This document shows positions 2,921-25,413 of a stretch of 37,271 nucleotides of DNA, in pieces. Positions within the stretch are counted from its first letter, which is position 1; every line of letters starts with the position of its first letter. The stretch spans positions 6,179-43,449 of the forward strand of contig PKTG01000097.1 in the NCBI GenBank assembly GCA_002869225.1, given 5' to 3'. The stretch comes from Candidatus Muiribacterium halophilum (GTDB taxonomy: Bacteria > Muiribacteriota > Muiribacteriia > Muiribacteriales > Muiribacteriaceae). Below the pieces are notes generated by a model. The model worked only from the letters and a program-made list of their open reading frames with translations. It had not been told where the DNA came from and did not search any database. The position numbers were made by a program, and so were the translations under genes.

Positions 2921-4045
2921 ATGAGAACACCTTTTTATGATTGTCATGTGAAATACGGCGGAAAGATCGTAGAGTTTTGTGGTTATGAACTTCCTATTCA
3001 ATTCGAAGGGATCATTAAAGAACATAACAGAGTAAGAGAAAATGCTGGTCTTTTTGATGTATCTCATATGGGTGAATTTTTTCTCGAAGGTAAAGGCGCT
3101 ATTGAGTTTGCAGATAAGATAGTACCAAACAGGGTGTCAGAACTTGTCGATGGTCAAGCTCTTTATACTCCTCTTTGTAGAGAAGATGGTACAACTGTAG
3201 ATGATCTTCTAGTATACAGAATGGATGCTGAAAATGTACTCCTTGTAGTAAATGCAGCTAATATAGATAAAGATTTTGCTCATATTTCATCGATTGATAG
3301 ACCGGAAAGTGTGAAACTAACAAACAGGTCTAAAGATTTTGCTCAACTTGCAATACAGGGTCCGAAAGCTCCTTATATAGTTCAGAAACTTATAGAAGAA
3401 GGAAGAAACGTTGATAACATTGGTTTTTTCCATTTTGAAAGATGTTTGTTTGCAGGAGTTCAGGCTATTGTATCAAGAACCGGTTATACTGGTGAATATG
3501 GATTTGAGATATATTTTGACTCACTCGATAAAGCGCATGATGTTTGGGAAAGCATAATGGAAGCTGGTAAAGAATATTATGTTCAGCCAATAGGTCTTGG
3601 TGCAAGGGATACACTCAGATTTGAGGGTTGTCTTATGCTTTATGGTAATGATCTTAATGATACTACTACTCCACTTGATGCTAAATTGAACTGGACTATT
3701 GACTGGAACTCGGATTTTATAGGTAAAGCTGCTCTTCTAAAACAGAAGGAAGAAGGTTACAGCAGAAGACTTGCAGGACTTGAGATAATAGATAAAGGAA
3801 TAGCAAGACATGATTATGAAGTATATTCACTTGATGAGAAAAAGATAGGAGTGATCACTTCAGGAACAAAATGTCCTACATTAAACAAGATAATGGCTAT
3901 GGCTTATATAGAAAGCCCGCTATGGAAAAAAGGTAATGAGGTATTAGTAAAAGTAAGGAACAAATTTATAAAAGCCAAGACTGTGAAGATGCCATTTTAT
4001 AAAAAACCGGCATTGACTATGGTAAATAAAGAACGCGAAGCGTAA
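2921..4045 (+). CDS. gcvT: Aminomethyltransferase, glycine cleavage T-protein
   Basis: T-protein takes the aminomethyl group from lipoylated GcvH and transfers the methylene to tetrahydrofolate, releasing ammonia. The 374-residue product has the usual length and recognisable motifs: FEGIIKEHNRVRENAGLFDVSHMGE near the N-terminus, SRTGYTGEYGFEIYF around residues 185-200, and GLGARDTLRFEG near 225. The ATG is preceded by GGGAG. It is separated from the rest of the glycine cleavage genes (gcvH-gcvPA-gcvPB) by about 410 bp of repeat-rich DNA, so an ancestral operon may have been split by repeat insertion. The C-terminal codons and the TAA run directly into the first heptamer of the repeat array, so the last few residues (EREA) may derive from the repeat. 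Confidence 0.95.
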   Translation: MRTPFYDCHVKYGGKIVEFCGYELPIQFEGIIKEHNRVRENAGLFDVSHMGEFFLEGKGAIEFADKIVPNRVSELVDGQALYTPLCREDGTTVDDLLVYRMDAENVLLVVNAANIDKDFAHISSIDRPESVKLTNRSKDFAQLAIQGPKAPYIVQKLIEEGRNVDNIGFFHFERCLFAGVQAIVSRTGYTGEYGFEIYFDSLDKAHDVWESIMEAGKEYYVQPIGLGARDTLRFEGCLMLYGNDLNDTTTPLDAKLNWTIDWNSDFIGKAALLKQKEEGYSRRLAGLEIIDKGIARHDYEVYSLDEKKIGVITSGTKCPTLNKIMAMAYIESPLWKKGNEVLVKVRNKFIKAKTVKMPFYKKPALTMVNKEREA

Positions 4046-4346
4046 TGCGTAAAGCGTAATGGGTAATAATTGAGTCGAGGGTCAAAAACCCTTTGCAAAG
4101 CAAAGCACAGCCTGAAAGGCTCATCTTGAGCGGAGCGATACATCAGCAGCATAGCTGCTAAACTGCTGTGAAACAGGAAACGGTGGAACAGTAAACAGTT
4201 AAAATTGTGAGAAGTGAAAAGTTAGCGAGTCTAATGACTCTAGTAATAAGATAAAAGTAGAAAATATAAAAACAAAGAAACATGGGGTTTGGGATTTGGT
4301 GTTTTGGATTTGGGGTGGTTATGATTTTCCCAAAAACCAAAATCCA
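4042..4346 (+). repeat. Degenerate 7-bp tandem repeat tract with small hairpins
   Basis: This intergenic stretch is built of successive, unrelated 7-bp repeats: GTAATGC/GTAAAGC/GTAATGG/GTAATAA at 4042-4069, then (after hairpins) GAAACAG/GAAACGG/TGGAACA/GTAAACA from about 4169, AGTGAAA-type units near 4211, and GGGGTTT/GGGATTT/GGTGTTT/TGGATTT/GGGGTGG at 4284-4318. In between sit short inverted repeats: AGGGT/ACCCT (4078-4092), AGCCT-GAA-AGGCT (4109-4121), AGCAGC-ATA-GCTGCT (4145-4159), and GAGTC-TAAT-GACTC (4227-4240). A 23-base segment (4224-4246) is identical to one at 21957-21979. No convincing gene lies inside. Confidence 0.75.
4078..4095 (+). terminator. Possible terminator after gcvT
   Basis: AGGGT and ACCCT flank a CAAAA loop and are followed by TTG; a 5-bp hairpin with a very short T-run about 30 bases after the gcvT stop. 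It may only be one of the local hairpin repeats. Confidence 0.3.
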
Positions 4347-4388
4347 GTTTCATACCAAGTCCCGATTATTAAGTTGGATTAAGAATAT

Positions 4389-17979: not shown

Positions 17980-19635
17980 ATGACTATCACATATATTTTT
18001 ATTTTCGCTCTATTACTAATGTTCTTTTTATCAAGATTTCTTGGTAAAGCTAATCTTCTTGTACTTCCATATTTTTTTATATGTATTGGCTTAATAACAT
18101 ATATGTATGAATTTAAAGACTTTTTACTTCCAGTACTTCTAGGTAGTATATTTTTCTTTTCGCTTGGAGTAGTTGTAAAAAGATATCATATTGATACTTT
18201 TCTGGAGATTCTCTTTCAGGTTCTGATAATCTCTTCGATTGTGTTTTTAGGGATGAAGATCTATTTTATCAGAAAACTTACTGGTGGCTTTTATTATTTT
18301 ACTGAGATAAGAGCTATTCTTTTTACCTTTTTCTGGATATTTATAAATATGAATGTGATGAAATTTATAAGAAAGACAGGTGAGCTTTTTCTTGGAATAG
18401 GTGTTTGTATAGTCATGGCTCTTTATATGCTTATTATAAATCAGAACATGCCAGTTGAGATAATGCTTTTTGCTCAATCTGTATTTTTTATATATTTATG
18501 GCTTCTTCTTTATAAGCTTATTTACAGGGAGAGTCTTTTTGATGATTCTATCTTTTACTTTCTATCTTTTTTAACGGTTAGTCTTTCTATTGTAGGAACA
18601 GCAAAAAGCGTAATGATATTTTCGGTTATCATTCCTGCTTTTATTGTTGGTATACCTTTGCTTTTCTTATTGTTTATGACAATACTTTCGTTTATTCGTT
18701 TTCAAAAAGGTGTAAGAGACCGTTTTTCATGGAAATTTTCTTATAACAGGATGATATTTTTCCTTTACCTGATCACTTTCTATGTTACCATACCTGTAAT
18801 ACTCTATTTTTCCAGAATAAGTATCGCAAAAAATGTTATAGTAAGTCTCCTTAGTTTTTCTATACTTTATCTTATTGGAAGGTCAGTCTTTTTTGGAGAA
18901 AAAAGATCCAAAGTCAAAAAAGCCATCTTTGGTGTTGATATAAAACCGGCTAGTCGAATCAAACTATTAAAAAGTGTTCATAACGTAATAAAGGGAAACG
19001 TACAAAACTATATCGTTACCCTTAATGCTTTGATGTTATACGAGGCTAAACAGGATGATTTTTATAGGGTTGTATTAAATTCTGCTGATTTTCAGACAGT
19101 AGACGGTGTTGGTGTATTATGGGCCATGGATTTTTTAGGTTATGAGAATATGGAGAAGGTTACAGGAATAGATTTTGTGAAAGATCTTGCCAGGCTATCT
19201 GCAAAATACGGTTATGGAATGTTTATGCTTGGAGCAGAACAGGACGTAGTTGAAACTGCTGCTAAAAACATGAAAAGAGATTTTGAAGGTGTAGTTATAA
19301 GTGGAGTAAGAAATGGGTATTTTGATTCAGAAAATGAATCAGAAGTAATTGAAAAGATAAATAGTTCAGGTGCAAAGATACTTCTTGTTGGAATGGGTGT
19401 ACCAAGGCAGGAAAAATGGATATTCTATAATCTTCATAAACTACCAAATGTAAGGATAGCTATTGGAGTTGGTGGAACGTTTGATGTATTATCCGGTAAA
19501 GTTAAAAGAGCACCAGGGTTGTTTCAGAAGGTTGGGCTTGAGTGGCTTTATAGAACGCTTAAAGAGCCAACAAGGTTTAGTAGAATACTAAAGCTACCAG
19601 CATTCGTCCTAAACGTCTTTAGAGAATACTTATAA
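17980..19635 (+). CDS. WecG/TagA/CpsF glycosyltransferase fused to a degenerate WecA-like membrane domain
   Basis: Residues about 318-551 are a complete WecG/TagA/CpsF glycosyltransferase (VTLNALMLYEAKQD, VDGVGVLWAMDFLG, GMFMLGAEQDVVE, LLVGMGVPRQEKW, GVGGTFDVLSGKVKRAPG, GLEWLYRTLKEPTR), which adds the second sugar to the lipid-linked carrier. Residues 1-315 contain about ten hydrophobic helices. Their pattern follows the MraY/WecA fold, but the acidic active-site motifs are absent: the DD position reads VVVKRYH, the NxxNxxDG position reads FINMNVMKF, and the VPxxD segment reads VGIPLLFLLF. I infer a catalytically dead transferase half. Normal WecG is about 240 residues. It is the last gene of the long run from gcvH; a heptamer repeat array begins six bases after its stop. 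Confidence 0.85.
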   Translation: MTITYIFIFALLLMFFLSRFLGKANLLVLPYFFICIGLITYMYEFKDFLLPVLLGSIFFFSLGVVVKRYHIDTFLEILFQVLIISSIVFLGMKIYFIRKLTGGFYYFTEIRAILFTFFWIFINMNVMKFIRKTGELFLGIGVCIVMALYMLIINQNMPVEIMLFAQSVFFIYLWLLLYKLIYRESLFDDSIFYFLSFLTVSLSIVGTAKSVMIFSVIIPAFIVGIPLLFLLFMTILSFIRFQKGVRDRFSWKFSYNRMIFFLYLITFYVTIPVILYFSRISIAKNVIVSLLSFSILYLIGRSVFFGEKRSKVKKAIFGVDIKPASRIKLLKSVHNVIKGNVQNYIVTLNALMLYEAKQDDFYRVVLNSADFQTVDGVGVLWAMDFLGYENMEKVTGIDFVKDLARLSAKYGYGMFMLGAEQDVVETAAKNMKRDFEGVVISGVRNGYFDSENESEVIEKINSSGAKILLVGMGVPRQEKWIFYNLHKLPNVRIAIGVGGTFDVLSGKVKRAPGLFQKVGLEWLYRTLKEPTRFSRILKLPAFVLNVFREYL

Positions 19636-19640
19636 TAACC

Positions 19641-19772
19641 GTAATGCGTAAAGCGTGATGGATAATGCGAAAAAACACGATATTTCGATAAACGATTTTA
19701 CGAAAAGTCGTTGAGTCGATAAATCGATAAGTCGGTTTTTTAATGATTCGTGAAAATGGGCTGTATTTTCAC
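19641..19772 (+). repeat. Second heptamer array and inverted repeats after the WecG gene
   Basis: GTAATGC, GTAAAGC, GTGATGG and ATAATGC follow one another at 19641-19668; the first 16 bases match 4042-4057. They are followed by TCGATAA-type repeats with 8-base spacing (to about 19733) ending in a T6 run, and by the perfect 8-bp inverted repeat GTGAAAAT (19750-19757)/ATTTTCAC (19765-19772). Any of these could act as a terminator; none is a classical one. Confidence 0.6.
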
Positions 19773-21234: not shown

Positions 21235-21930
21235 CTATAAAATCAAAGGTACGAAGCGGAAAAGATCTTTTGATTTTGTGATAATTAACTCATTATCTTT
21301 TTTCTTAATGAAATACATTGGACCCTCTCTTTGTGGACAAATAAGCTTACCGTTTTCGGTAAGTCTATTAAAGGCGAATTCTTTTAATATCTCCAGCTTA
21401 TCTTCTTCTATTCCTGCTGTTATTATTATTCTGTCAAAAAAAGGCATATCATCAAAATCTTCTGAAAAAATATTTCCTGTGATGAATTCAATATTTTCAT
21501 ATCTATGTCTTTGCTGAGAATGCTTCATGAGGTTTTCAACATTATTTTTAGCTTTATGGGTCAAATCAGGTATTACTTCAAAAGAGTAGACTTGACCAGG
21601 ATCTACAAGATACGAAAGAAGAGCTGCGTTCCATCCGCTACCGCTACCTATTTCAAGAACTGTCATTCCTGATTCTATTGGATGTTTTAGAAGCATATAC
21701 ACAACAGTAGAAGGCTGACTAATCGTTTGTCCATGTTCAATCGGTAGAGCAGTATCCAGATATTCAAATCCAGGTTTATCTAAAAAAAATCTTCTATCGG
21801 TCTCTCTGATAGCTTCGATTATTCTATGGAAGTATTTCTGATGTTCTTTATCTCTTATAAGGTATACCGAGTTTCTTTTGATAGTATCCATTAAAGTATC
21901 AAGTGTAGGTGATTGATTAAATAGGACCAT
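21235..21930 (-). CDS. pcm: Protein-L-isoaspartate O-methyltransferase
   Basis: SAM-dependent repair enzyme that methylates isoaspartyl residues in damaged proteins. Residues 60-75 (ALPIEHGQTISQPSTV) carry the family signature GQTISQP, and VLEIGSGSGWNAALLSYL (from 91) is the SAM-binding motif I; DRIIITAGIE and RLTENGKLICPQREG follow. 231 residues is normal. The start at 21930 has no ribosome site but has a TATAAT exactly six bases upstream, which suggests a leaderless mRNA; an internal Met at residue 14 is the alternative. It ends in TAG, 15 bases from the right end of the MITE-like element. Placed beside the chaperonin operon, it fits a protein-quality theme. Confidence 0.92.
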   Translation of the reverse strand: MVLFNQSPTLDTLMDTIKRNSVYLIRDKEHQKYFHRIIEAIRETDRRFFLDKPGFEYLDTALPIEHGQTISQPSTVVYMLLKHPIESGMTVLEIGSGSGWNAALLSYLVDPGQVYSFEVIPDLTHKAKNNVENLMKHSQQRHRYENIEFITGNIFSEDFDDMPFFDRIIITAGIEEDKLEILKEFAFNRLTENGKLICPQREGPMYFIKKKDNELIITKSKDLFRFVPLIL

Positions 21931-21942: not shown

Positions 21943-21956
21943 TCAATAATCATGTA

Positions 21957-22150
21957 AGCGAGTCTAATGACTCTAGTAAGCAGTATTAAAATACTTAGTA
22001 AACAGAGCTTCAAAGCTCTTAGTTAGTTGAAAAATATTAAATTAGACCGAAGGTCACTTACTAACGAATTTAAAGAGTGCTTACAAGAACCGAAGGTTAG
22101 CTTACAAGGAATGAAAAAAGTCCGCTTACACAAAGTAGGAACCGGTGACC
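21957..22150. repeat. Cluster of short hairpin repeats with a conserved TTAGTAAGC-type linker
   Basis: At least five small inverted repeats stand in a row, each with different arms but the same linker: GAGTC-TAAT-GACTC (21960-21973), AGTAT-TAAA-ATACT (21982-21995), AGAGCTT-CA-AAGCTCT (22004-22019), GACC-GAA-GGTC (22045-22055), AACC-GAA-GGTT (22088-22098). The first three are followed by TAGTAAGC/TAGTAAAC/TAGTTAG; the later ones are preceded or followed by the reverse form (CTTACTAAC, GCTTACAA). The first unit is 23 bases identical to 4224-4246. This fills most of the pcm-groES gap; no gene lies in it. Confidence 0.7.
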
Positions 22151-22234: not shown

Positions 22235-22238
22235 GGTA

Positions 22239-22265
22239 TTAGCAGCTGGTGTAAACGGCTGCTAA
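22239..22265 (+). promoter_or_regulatory. CIRCE-like HrcA operator with altered arms
   Basis: TTAGCAGCT, nine bases, GGCTGCTAA. Canonical CIRCE is TTAGCACTC-N9-GAGTGCTAA; the 9-9-9 geometry and outer TTAGCA/TGCTAA are kept, while the inner three bases of both arms differ, in mirror-image fashion at two of the three positions. It lies at the groES transcription start and hrcA is encoded just downstream of groEL, so HrcA autoregulation of the chaperonin operon is likely. Confidence 0.75.
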
Positions 22266-22310
22266 TAAATGAAATCAAAAAACAAAGAATAAAAAACAGG
22301 AGGAACAAAA

Positions 22311-24336: not shown

Positions 24337-25413
24337 ATGAAAATGAAAAAGCTTACAGATAGAAAAAAAATAATATTATCCAGTCTTATTCAGGAGTACA
24401 TAAAAACAGGTGATCCTGTATCTTCAAGGTCAGTTACAAAGAACGATAATGTCAGCTGTTCTTCCGCTACGGTAAGAAACGAACTTTCTGAACTTGAGGA
24501 TATGGGTTTACTTGAAAAGTCCCATTCATTTTCAGGTAGACTTCCTTCAGATGTTGGTTATAGATTTTTTGTTGATAATCTAATGGATAGTGTGGTTGAC
24601 CTATCCTTAAATGAAAAGGAGAGAATATCTTCTATTTACTCTTTAAGGAATTTAAACTCATCCAGATCTACTATGCTTAAGGATATATTTCTTTATGGTG
24701 TAAATGTACTAAATAATCTATGTGATCAGGCGGCTTTTATTTGTGAAGCAAGAAGCATTGAAAAGTCTGTTAAAGCTATTAAGATAATAAAGGTGTCTTC
24801 TCTTGTTTATACAGTTATCTTTCATCATGATAATAACGTAATCGAAAACAAATTATGGTTTCCTACAAATTTGATCACAGATGAAGGTCTGGAAACAATG
24901 AACAACGTGCTTCAGGATATAACATCAAAAGGATTTAAAGACCTTTCAAATGATGTAAAGAATTATTTTCAAAAGAATAAAGGTCTAAACCATCTTAGAG
25001 AAGGTATTATAGAGATAGTCGAACTCGTTCTTGATGGAGGTCGTGAATCGAATATTGATGATACTCTTTATATAGAAGGTATATCAAAACTTATTCAAAA
25101 GCCTGAGTTTGCATCTATGGAAAAAATCAGGTCGATAATACAGCTTTTTGAAAGTAAAGAACTTTTGAATCGTGAGATAAAAAAACTTCTTATTTTGAAA
25201 AAGATGAATATAAAGATAGGTTCAGAACTTGGAGTTGATGATCTTAATGACTTCTCGCTTATTAGTATACCTTATAGTGCTGGAGAAGATAAAAAAGGTG
25301 TCATAGGTATAATTGGTACAAAAAGGATGCAGTATGAGAGAATCGTTAAAATAGTTCGTGAGACTGCTGAAAAATTATCTAGTTTGCTAGTTGGGATCGA
25401 TCTTGATCTATGA
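24337..25413 (+). CDS. hrcA: Heat-inducible transcription repressor HrcA
   Basis: HrcA binds CIRCE and needs GroEL to fold into its active form, which makes it a heat sensor. The N-terminal winged helix is clear (LTDRKKIILSSLIQEYIKTGDPVSSRSV then CSSATVRNELSELEDMGLLEKSHSFSGRLPSDVGYRFFVD, about residues 5-77). The remainder is the GAF-like regulatory domain; ISIPYSAGEDKKGVIGIIGTKRMQYERIV near the end is typical. 358 residues, normal. Two in-frame ATGs (24337 and 24343) are possible starts; AAGG precedes the first. It overlaps the DnaJ-like gene by 4 bases (ATGA). Confidence 0.94.
   Translation: MKMKKLTDRKKIILSSLIQEYIKTGDPVSSRSVTKNDNVSCSSATVRNELSELEDMGLLEKSHSFSGRLPSDVGYRFFVDNLMDSVVDLSLNEKERISSIYSLRNLNSSRSTMLKDIFLYGVNVLNNLCDQAAFICEARSIEKSVKAIKIIKVSSLVYTVIFHHDNNVIENKLWFPTNLITDEGLETMNNVLQDITSKGFKDLSNDVKNYFQKNKGLNHLREGIIEIVELVLDGGRESNIDDTLYIEGISKLIQKPEFASMEKIRSIIQLFESKELLNREIKKLLILKKMNIKIGSELGVDDLNDFSLISIPYSAGEDKKGVIGIIGTKRMQYERIVKIVRETAEKLSSLLVGIDLDL

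Follow-up and report, generated by a model that had tools for sequence, protein, structure and literature searches.

The window analysed here is the whole 37,271-nucleotide stretch of a contig of Candidatus Muiribacterium halophilum. Between two of its genes that diverge, PCMT (21235-21930, minus strand) and groES (22311, plus strand), lies a row of short hairpins. A CIRCE-like inverted repeat, TATTAGCAGC-N11-GCTGCTAATA, is also present before groES at 22237-22267, with hrcA at 24337; the usual CIRCE arms are TTAGCACTC, and those at 22237-22267 differ from them. The row comprises seven hairpins (21960-22123), three and then four, separated by 8-nt linkers of the TAGTAAGC type whose orientation flips midway. 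An earlier note, made from the letters of this DNA, had described successive inverted repeats with the same linker running first in one orientation and then in the other. This is what we find, although it counted five hairpins where we count seven, two of the last four (H3 and H1) being poor. The slot names R1-R3 and H1-H4 are our own.

We place the whole element at 21952-22131, with its first and last linkers as bounds, on the basis of an architecture that it shares with 11 other copies; its sense, on the plus strand, is set by the H4/H3 module of those copies. All parts are given here as read on that strand. The element opens with the linker ATGTAAGC (21952-21959), the first strand of a predicted spine, which pairs with a 3' linker in minimum-energy folds. 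Hairpin R3 (GAGTC-TAAT-GACTC, 21960-21973) is followed by the linker TAGTAAGC (21974-21981), hairpin R2 (AGTAT-TAAA-ATACT, 21982-21995), the linker TAGTAAAC (21996-22003) and hairpin R1 (AGAGCT-TCAA-AGCTCT, 22004-22019), so that each of the first three hairpins is preceded by a linker. The centre, TAGTTAGTTGAAAAATATTAAATTA (22020-22044), is degenerate in this copy; most other copies have TAGTGAGAAGTGAGAGGTTTAAATTCACTA. Beyond it stands H4 (GACC-GAA-GGTC, 22045-22055), which of all the family's hairpins is the best conserved, and from here the linkers, lying among and after the last four hairpins, take the 3'-side orientation: ACTTACTA (22056-22063), the weak hairpin H3 ACGAATTTAAAGAGT (22064-22078; ACAAAGT in most copies), GCTTACAA (22079-22086), hairpin H2 (AACC-GAA-GGTT, 22088-22098), GCTTACAA again (22100-22107), the weak hairpin H1 GGAATGAAAAAAGTCC (22108-22123) and the last linker GCTTACAC (22124-22131).

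A partial copy, AGTTAGC followed by GAGTCTAATGACTC and TAGTAA and preceded by GTGAGAAGTGAAA, lies on the plus strand at 4220-4246, between gcvT and gcvH. The 23-base identity that the note had reported there is exact, AGCGAGTCTAATGACTCTAGTAA recurring at 4224-4246, and it includes an identical copy of hairpin R3 at 4227-4240. The two further hairpins that it had likened to the row, at 4109-4121 and 4145-4159, do exist; they are not members of the family, however, because the linker, which is the family's own criterion, is absent from both.

The setting of the window copy, between divergent PCMT and groES and beside the CIRCE-like repeat, could point to a protein-binding regulatory array for groES-groEL or for PCMT. 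Eleven other copies nevertheless adjoin unrelated genes, mostly on the downstream side, and the CIRCE-like repeat is separate and of other sequence. We therefore consider a regulatory array very improbable.

A dispersed family of fixed architecture behind stop codons

The row is one copy of a repeat of ~130-190 bases that occurs some twelve times in the genome, usually right after a stop codon. Covariance model R1, which covers three slots, finds 12 copies in this genome with a best E of about 1e-19, and matches the window at 22038-22107 on the minus strand (G000:C119:28216-28285) with 75.7 bits; the earlier suggestion of a dispersed repeat family is borne out. A genome-wide linker search, proposed in the same note, which would have counted a lack of linker enrichment elsewhere as a refutation, upheld the family, with 12 matches for GTAAGC-N6..18-TAGTAAGC compared with 0 for the reversed pattern. 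The genome is 89% complete and in 148 contigs, and one copy ends close to a contig edge. Among 39 other genomes of the phylum, none of them from the same family, covariance model R1 found 0 copies, and the few linker matches in phylum relatives are, by eye, not hairpins. Rfam gave nothing at the gathering threshold in the window, five loci searched with a limit of E 0.5 gave nothing either, and searching the literature for strings of the element's sequence returned only unrelated primers and the like. As far as our literature search reached there is no paper describing the family, and in that sense it is, as was supposed, undescribed.

Read in context, the units stand in a fixed order and are not free-standing. 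The sense consensus of the 5' part is CAGTGAGC-hairpin R2-TAGTGAGC-hairpin R1-TTAGTGAGAAGTGAGAGGTTTAAATTCACTA-GACCGAAGGTC-GCTTACTA-ACAAAGT, and that of the 3' part, from the same ACAAAGT onwards, is ACAAAGT-GCTTACTA-hairpin H2-GCTTACTA-hairpin H1-GCTTACAA. The 5' linkers are of the AGTGAGC type, the consensus centre is AGTGAGAAGTGAGAGG, followed by the GACC hairpin, and the constant tag of the family can be written (T)AGTRAGC / GCTTACTA. Each element switches orientation once, in its middle. The 5'-side and 3'-side linkers are reverse complements of each other, as are the first linker and the last. The idea that the linkers supply stop codons in every frame was dropped, since units whose length is a multiple of three are not avoided.

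The sense strand of the element matches the direction of the nearest upstream gene in 10 of the 12 copies (one-sided binomial, about 0.02). For 8 or 9 of these ten co-directional copies the first linker begins about 2-36 nt past the stop codon, the nearer stop for copy C115 having been read by eye past an apparent frameshift. (The gene upstream of C115 seems to be broken by a single frameshift near its end, whether an assembly error or real.) The upstream genes are unrelated, encoding among others a dodecin, MscS, a carbamoyltransferase, a HAD hydrolase and a 5'-nucleotidase, and they keep their C-terminal domains, implying that the element sits behind genes without truncating them. Copy C16 has lost its 5' half; directly 3' of C16 and of C113 there is a terminator-like hairpin with a T run, as in an intrinsic terminator. 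MITEs are bounded by terminal inverted repeats and a target-site duplication; no such duplication is evident by eye at the copies. The position rule is broken by copy C112 and by the window copy, which may have been displaced or have decayed.

Two heptamer arrays in the window obey the same rule, being placed at or just past a stop codon. In one, GCGTAAT-GCGTAAA-GCGTAAT (4040-4061), the TAA of gcvT (4043-4045) falls inside the first heptamer; the other, CGTAATG-CGTAAAG-CGTGATG (19640-19661), begins a few bases past a WecG-like gene that ends at 19635.

Covariation of the hairpin arms

The earlier note held that the arms vary in sequence and yet stay self-complementary. A linker-only search of the genome, GTAAGC-N8..20-TAGTAA, is blind to the arms and returned 16 places, at each of which Watson-Crick pairs were scored between the four outer positions on either side of the spacer. 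These spacers, chosen by their linkers, form 44 of 64 possible outer pairs. Shuffled spacers gave a mean of 20.0 and a maximum of 36 in 20,000 trials, and arms swapped between places a mean of 21.1 and a maximum of 40 in as many. The self-complementarity thus survives the comparison with shuffled DNA on which the note had made it depend, not one trial in 20,000 being as good. Chance hairpins of AT-rich DNA might be expected in an AT-rich region such as this one, and some single matches are indeed chance, such as that at C114:21867, a linker match that coincides with a gene's first codons and was rejected. With pairing that no shuffle or swap equalled, and covariance matches down to E of about 1e-19 that share a common architecture, we regard chance as practically out of the question for the family.

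MAFFT put the arms out of register, both in the full elements and in the R2 hairpins, and pairing was therefore tested slot by slot, by script, with the 5' arms set against 3' arms from other copies in the same slot as the control. Slots were assigned by hand, with hairpin positions taken from the linkers, which makes the following figures less blind than those of the linker-only test. Own arms form 39 of 40 pairs in slot R2 (19.1 when swapped), 36 of 36 in R1 (18.7), 36 of 40 in H2 (30.9) and 24 of 28 in H1 (16.5). For the conserved slot H4 the difference between own and swapped arms is not significant, and the slot is uninformative.

The slots also differ in how their arms have changed. In each of R1 and R2 there are 9-10 distinct hairpins with, between them, 6 different 4-nt arms; the whole hairpin changes from copy to copy, and its pairing is Watson-Crick and almost perfect. 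Only H4 is conserved. In the arms of H1-H4, read on the sense strand, G.U pairs number about 10 and A.C oppositions about 3, a count that leaves out the mis-split copy C14 and two long R1 inserts. This excess is suggestive, and only suggestive, of stepwise selection at the level of RNA. The state of R1 and R2 would fit single template-switch events, as the inverted templating suggested in the note might leave them, and that of H1-H4 would fit selection on RNA.

In copies G000:C104 and G000:C112 slot R1 holds a long nested hairpin (AACACCGGGTCTGGCTGACCCC...), with letters similar to those of the GGGGTCAGACC inverted repeats found around a Y1 transposase gene of the same genome.

The same design in a Clostridia genome

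When the linker-only pattern was run over GTDB genome contigs and the matches were ranked by arm complementarity, there were many single, chance-like matches, and among the matches listed those with the highest complementarity came almost all from one unrelated metagenome-assembled genome, Clostridia bacterium RGIG7378 (JAFYSJ contigs, G057). In that genome CTAGTRARC-N8..16-CTAGT has 170 matches, compared with 0 for the control. Own arms form 118 of 125 pairs, as against 87.5 for swapped arms, whose maximum in 2,000 trials was 102. Where the upstream gene is in view, 8 of 11 arrays follow a co-directional gene, and in one array the TAG of a linker doubles as the stop codon of the gene. Six of 7 arrays are more stable when the linker strand is folded.

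Like the Muiribacterium element, these arrays have TAGTRARC linkers between hairpins whose arms vary and covary. They differ from it in their arms, which are GC-rich and use a small alphabet (49 spacer types in the 151 units sampled), and in running mostly in one orientation. The likeness of the linker letters does not imply common descent, because the search pattern came from the Muiribacterium genome. The only other genome of the same order that was examined has no arrays, and 391 genomes of the class gave two single, chance-like matches and no arrays.

The bacterial palindromic repeats known to us take their names from a stem sequence that they keep. In the present design it is the shape that is kept; the stem sequence is free and the linker is constant, which means that similarity searches relying on conserved stems would miss such a family; a search by linker alone at once gave a second and massive case. 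The many paired copies within one genome are, moreover, a natural test of whether compensatory change proceeds by single pairs through G.U or by whole arms in one template switch.

Folding, origin and relation to known repeats

In predicted single-strand folds linkers pair with linkers, and the hairpins are side branches along a chain of junctions. Over 21950-22132 the plus strand folded as DNA has a z-score of -4.2 and the minus strand folded as RNA one of -3.3. Of ten copies folded on both strands, nine are more stable in the sense (for example -45.9 versus -31.0 and -42.8 versus -29.0 kcal/mol) and one shows a tie; the gain comes mainly from long-range linker pairs (copy C73, -22.3 versus -9.6 kcal/mol). 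Scored against dinucleotide shuffles, the sense strand averages a z of about -3.2 and the complement one of about -1.9, the sense being better in 8 of 10. At the same position of the spine the 5' linkers have G or A and the 3' linkers U, and the sense strand folds better because it has G.U there where its complement has A.C. In the window copy, the centre of which has decayed, the two strands are equally stable (-44.8 versus -44.3). The asymmetry between strands in the other modelled folds argues for RNA rather than DNA as the folding molecule, though on its own not strongly.

What, then, is this element? As the best explanation, to which we give about an even chance, the row in the window belongs to a dispersed family of structured, non-coding repeats, most copies of which form part of the 3' untranslated region of the gene before them. 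The element would be transcribed together with that gene. Its 5' linkers would pair with its 3' linkers, one G.U being tolerated, to make a spine from which pairs of hairpins project at every junction like the ribs of a fishbone, and selection, or repair, would hold the ribs paired while their sequence drifts free. By analogy with REP and BIME elements, for which there is precedent in the protection of mRNA ends (PMC3733652), the compact fold may protect or insulate the 3' end of the message, and the element may have spread as a non-autonomous repeat. The earlier reading was in these terms partly right; it did not foresee a long element of fixed architecture, the complementarity of the linkers or the position after stop codons.

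It has also to be considered that the hairpins are a mutational by-product with scarcely any function or none. Template switching during replication, within single-stranded stretches, would then go on writing short and perfectly paired hairpins into the gaps between repeats that are conserved. One switch of template is enough to produce an RNA hairpin or to maintain it (PMC8794818), and such a process would account for the wholesale replacement and nearly perfect Watson-Crick pairing of R1 and R2, as well as for the variety of spacers in the Clostridia arrays. It leaves unexplained the fixed order of the slots, the reverse-complementary linkers, the folding asymmetry and the position after stop codons, and the G.U pairs in H1-H4 count against it; we judge it distinctly unlikely. 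Somewhat less doubtful, though still speculative, is a combination in which the ribs are rewritten by templated hairpin-copying and the spine is selected as RNA. The module would then be a self-renewing 3'-UTR structure that spreads behind stop codons, its design having arisen in, or been passed on to, at least two phyla.

The repeat could instead be mobile at the level of DNA, REP/BIME- or MITE-like, and be moved as a single strand by a Y1 transposase (RAYT/TnpA-REP) or another transposase that reads hairpins. The linker would then be the recognised tag and the position behind genes would reflect tolerance of insertion. REP and BIME elements of the GTAG and CGTC super-families are short palindromes of intergenic DNA, flanked by a constant tag that stays unpaired, which occur singly or in mosaics of both orientations, with spacers that may pair, and for which roles in mRNA stabilisation and termination have been proposed (PMC3733652, PMC2817692, PMC8266576). 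Our element likewise has short hairpins beside a constant tag, both orientations within one element and dispersed copies, and the genome encodes one intact Y1_Tnp gene. That gene, however, is bordered by GGGGTCAGACC inverted repeats and not by our element, although a second gene could have been missed or left unassembled in a genome that is 89% complete. No copy carries a GTAG or CGTC tag. REP families are defined by a common stem, whereas the stems here differ from copy to copy within one genome, and the tag is reverse-complementary between the two halves and able to form a spine. The switch of orientation in mid-element recalls a BIME, but the units are not REPs. Finally, the better folding of one strand is not something that DNA hairpins demand. 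Mobility of this kind is possible, but we think it rather unlikely. Returning to the structured 3'-UTR repeat, we conclude that, as far as the analogy extends, it is probably REP/BIME-like in effect, yet not a REP.

The Y1_Tnp gene itself (G000:C17:6557-6886; L238 901-1878, minus strand) has 325 codons and GGGGTCAGACCTTGTTATT / AACAAGGTCTGACCCC ends, and sits behind an ABC-F-like gene.

Other known repeats differ more plainly. CRISPR arrays have repeats of about 23-50 nt and unique, non-palindromic spacers, whereas the linkers here are of 8 nt, the spacers are palindromes of 7-18 nt and the orientation flips; the element is not a CRISPR array. Heptamer direct repeats such as TAACTGA in Beggiatoaceae are found ahead of start codons, with no hairpin separating one unit from the next (PMC4679880). 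Like the present element they are short, constant, intergenic units that occur sporadically across phyla, and the centre of our element has AGTGAGA heptamers. Among organelle hairpin repeats we know of no fishbone with paired linkers. Organelle double-hairpin elements and the RHE of sponge mitochondria, as presented in the part of the source available to us (PMC2800124), are also dispersed intergenic hairpin repeats, but they are organellar.

Viral matches with TAGTGAGC-ACTWACTWAC repeats were set aside as a different tandem repeat. Tandem TTAGTGAGC-ACTAACTAACNAGGT, or similar, occurs in many IMG/VR contigs, and again has linker letters in common but is a different repeat. G-rich runs of the GGTTTGGGATTTGG type followed by CCCAAAAACCAAAATCC occur at two intergenic places, one of them at 4285-4360 of the window.
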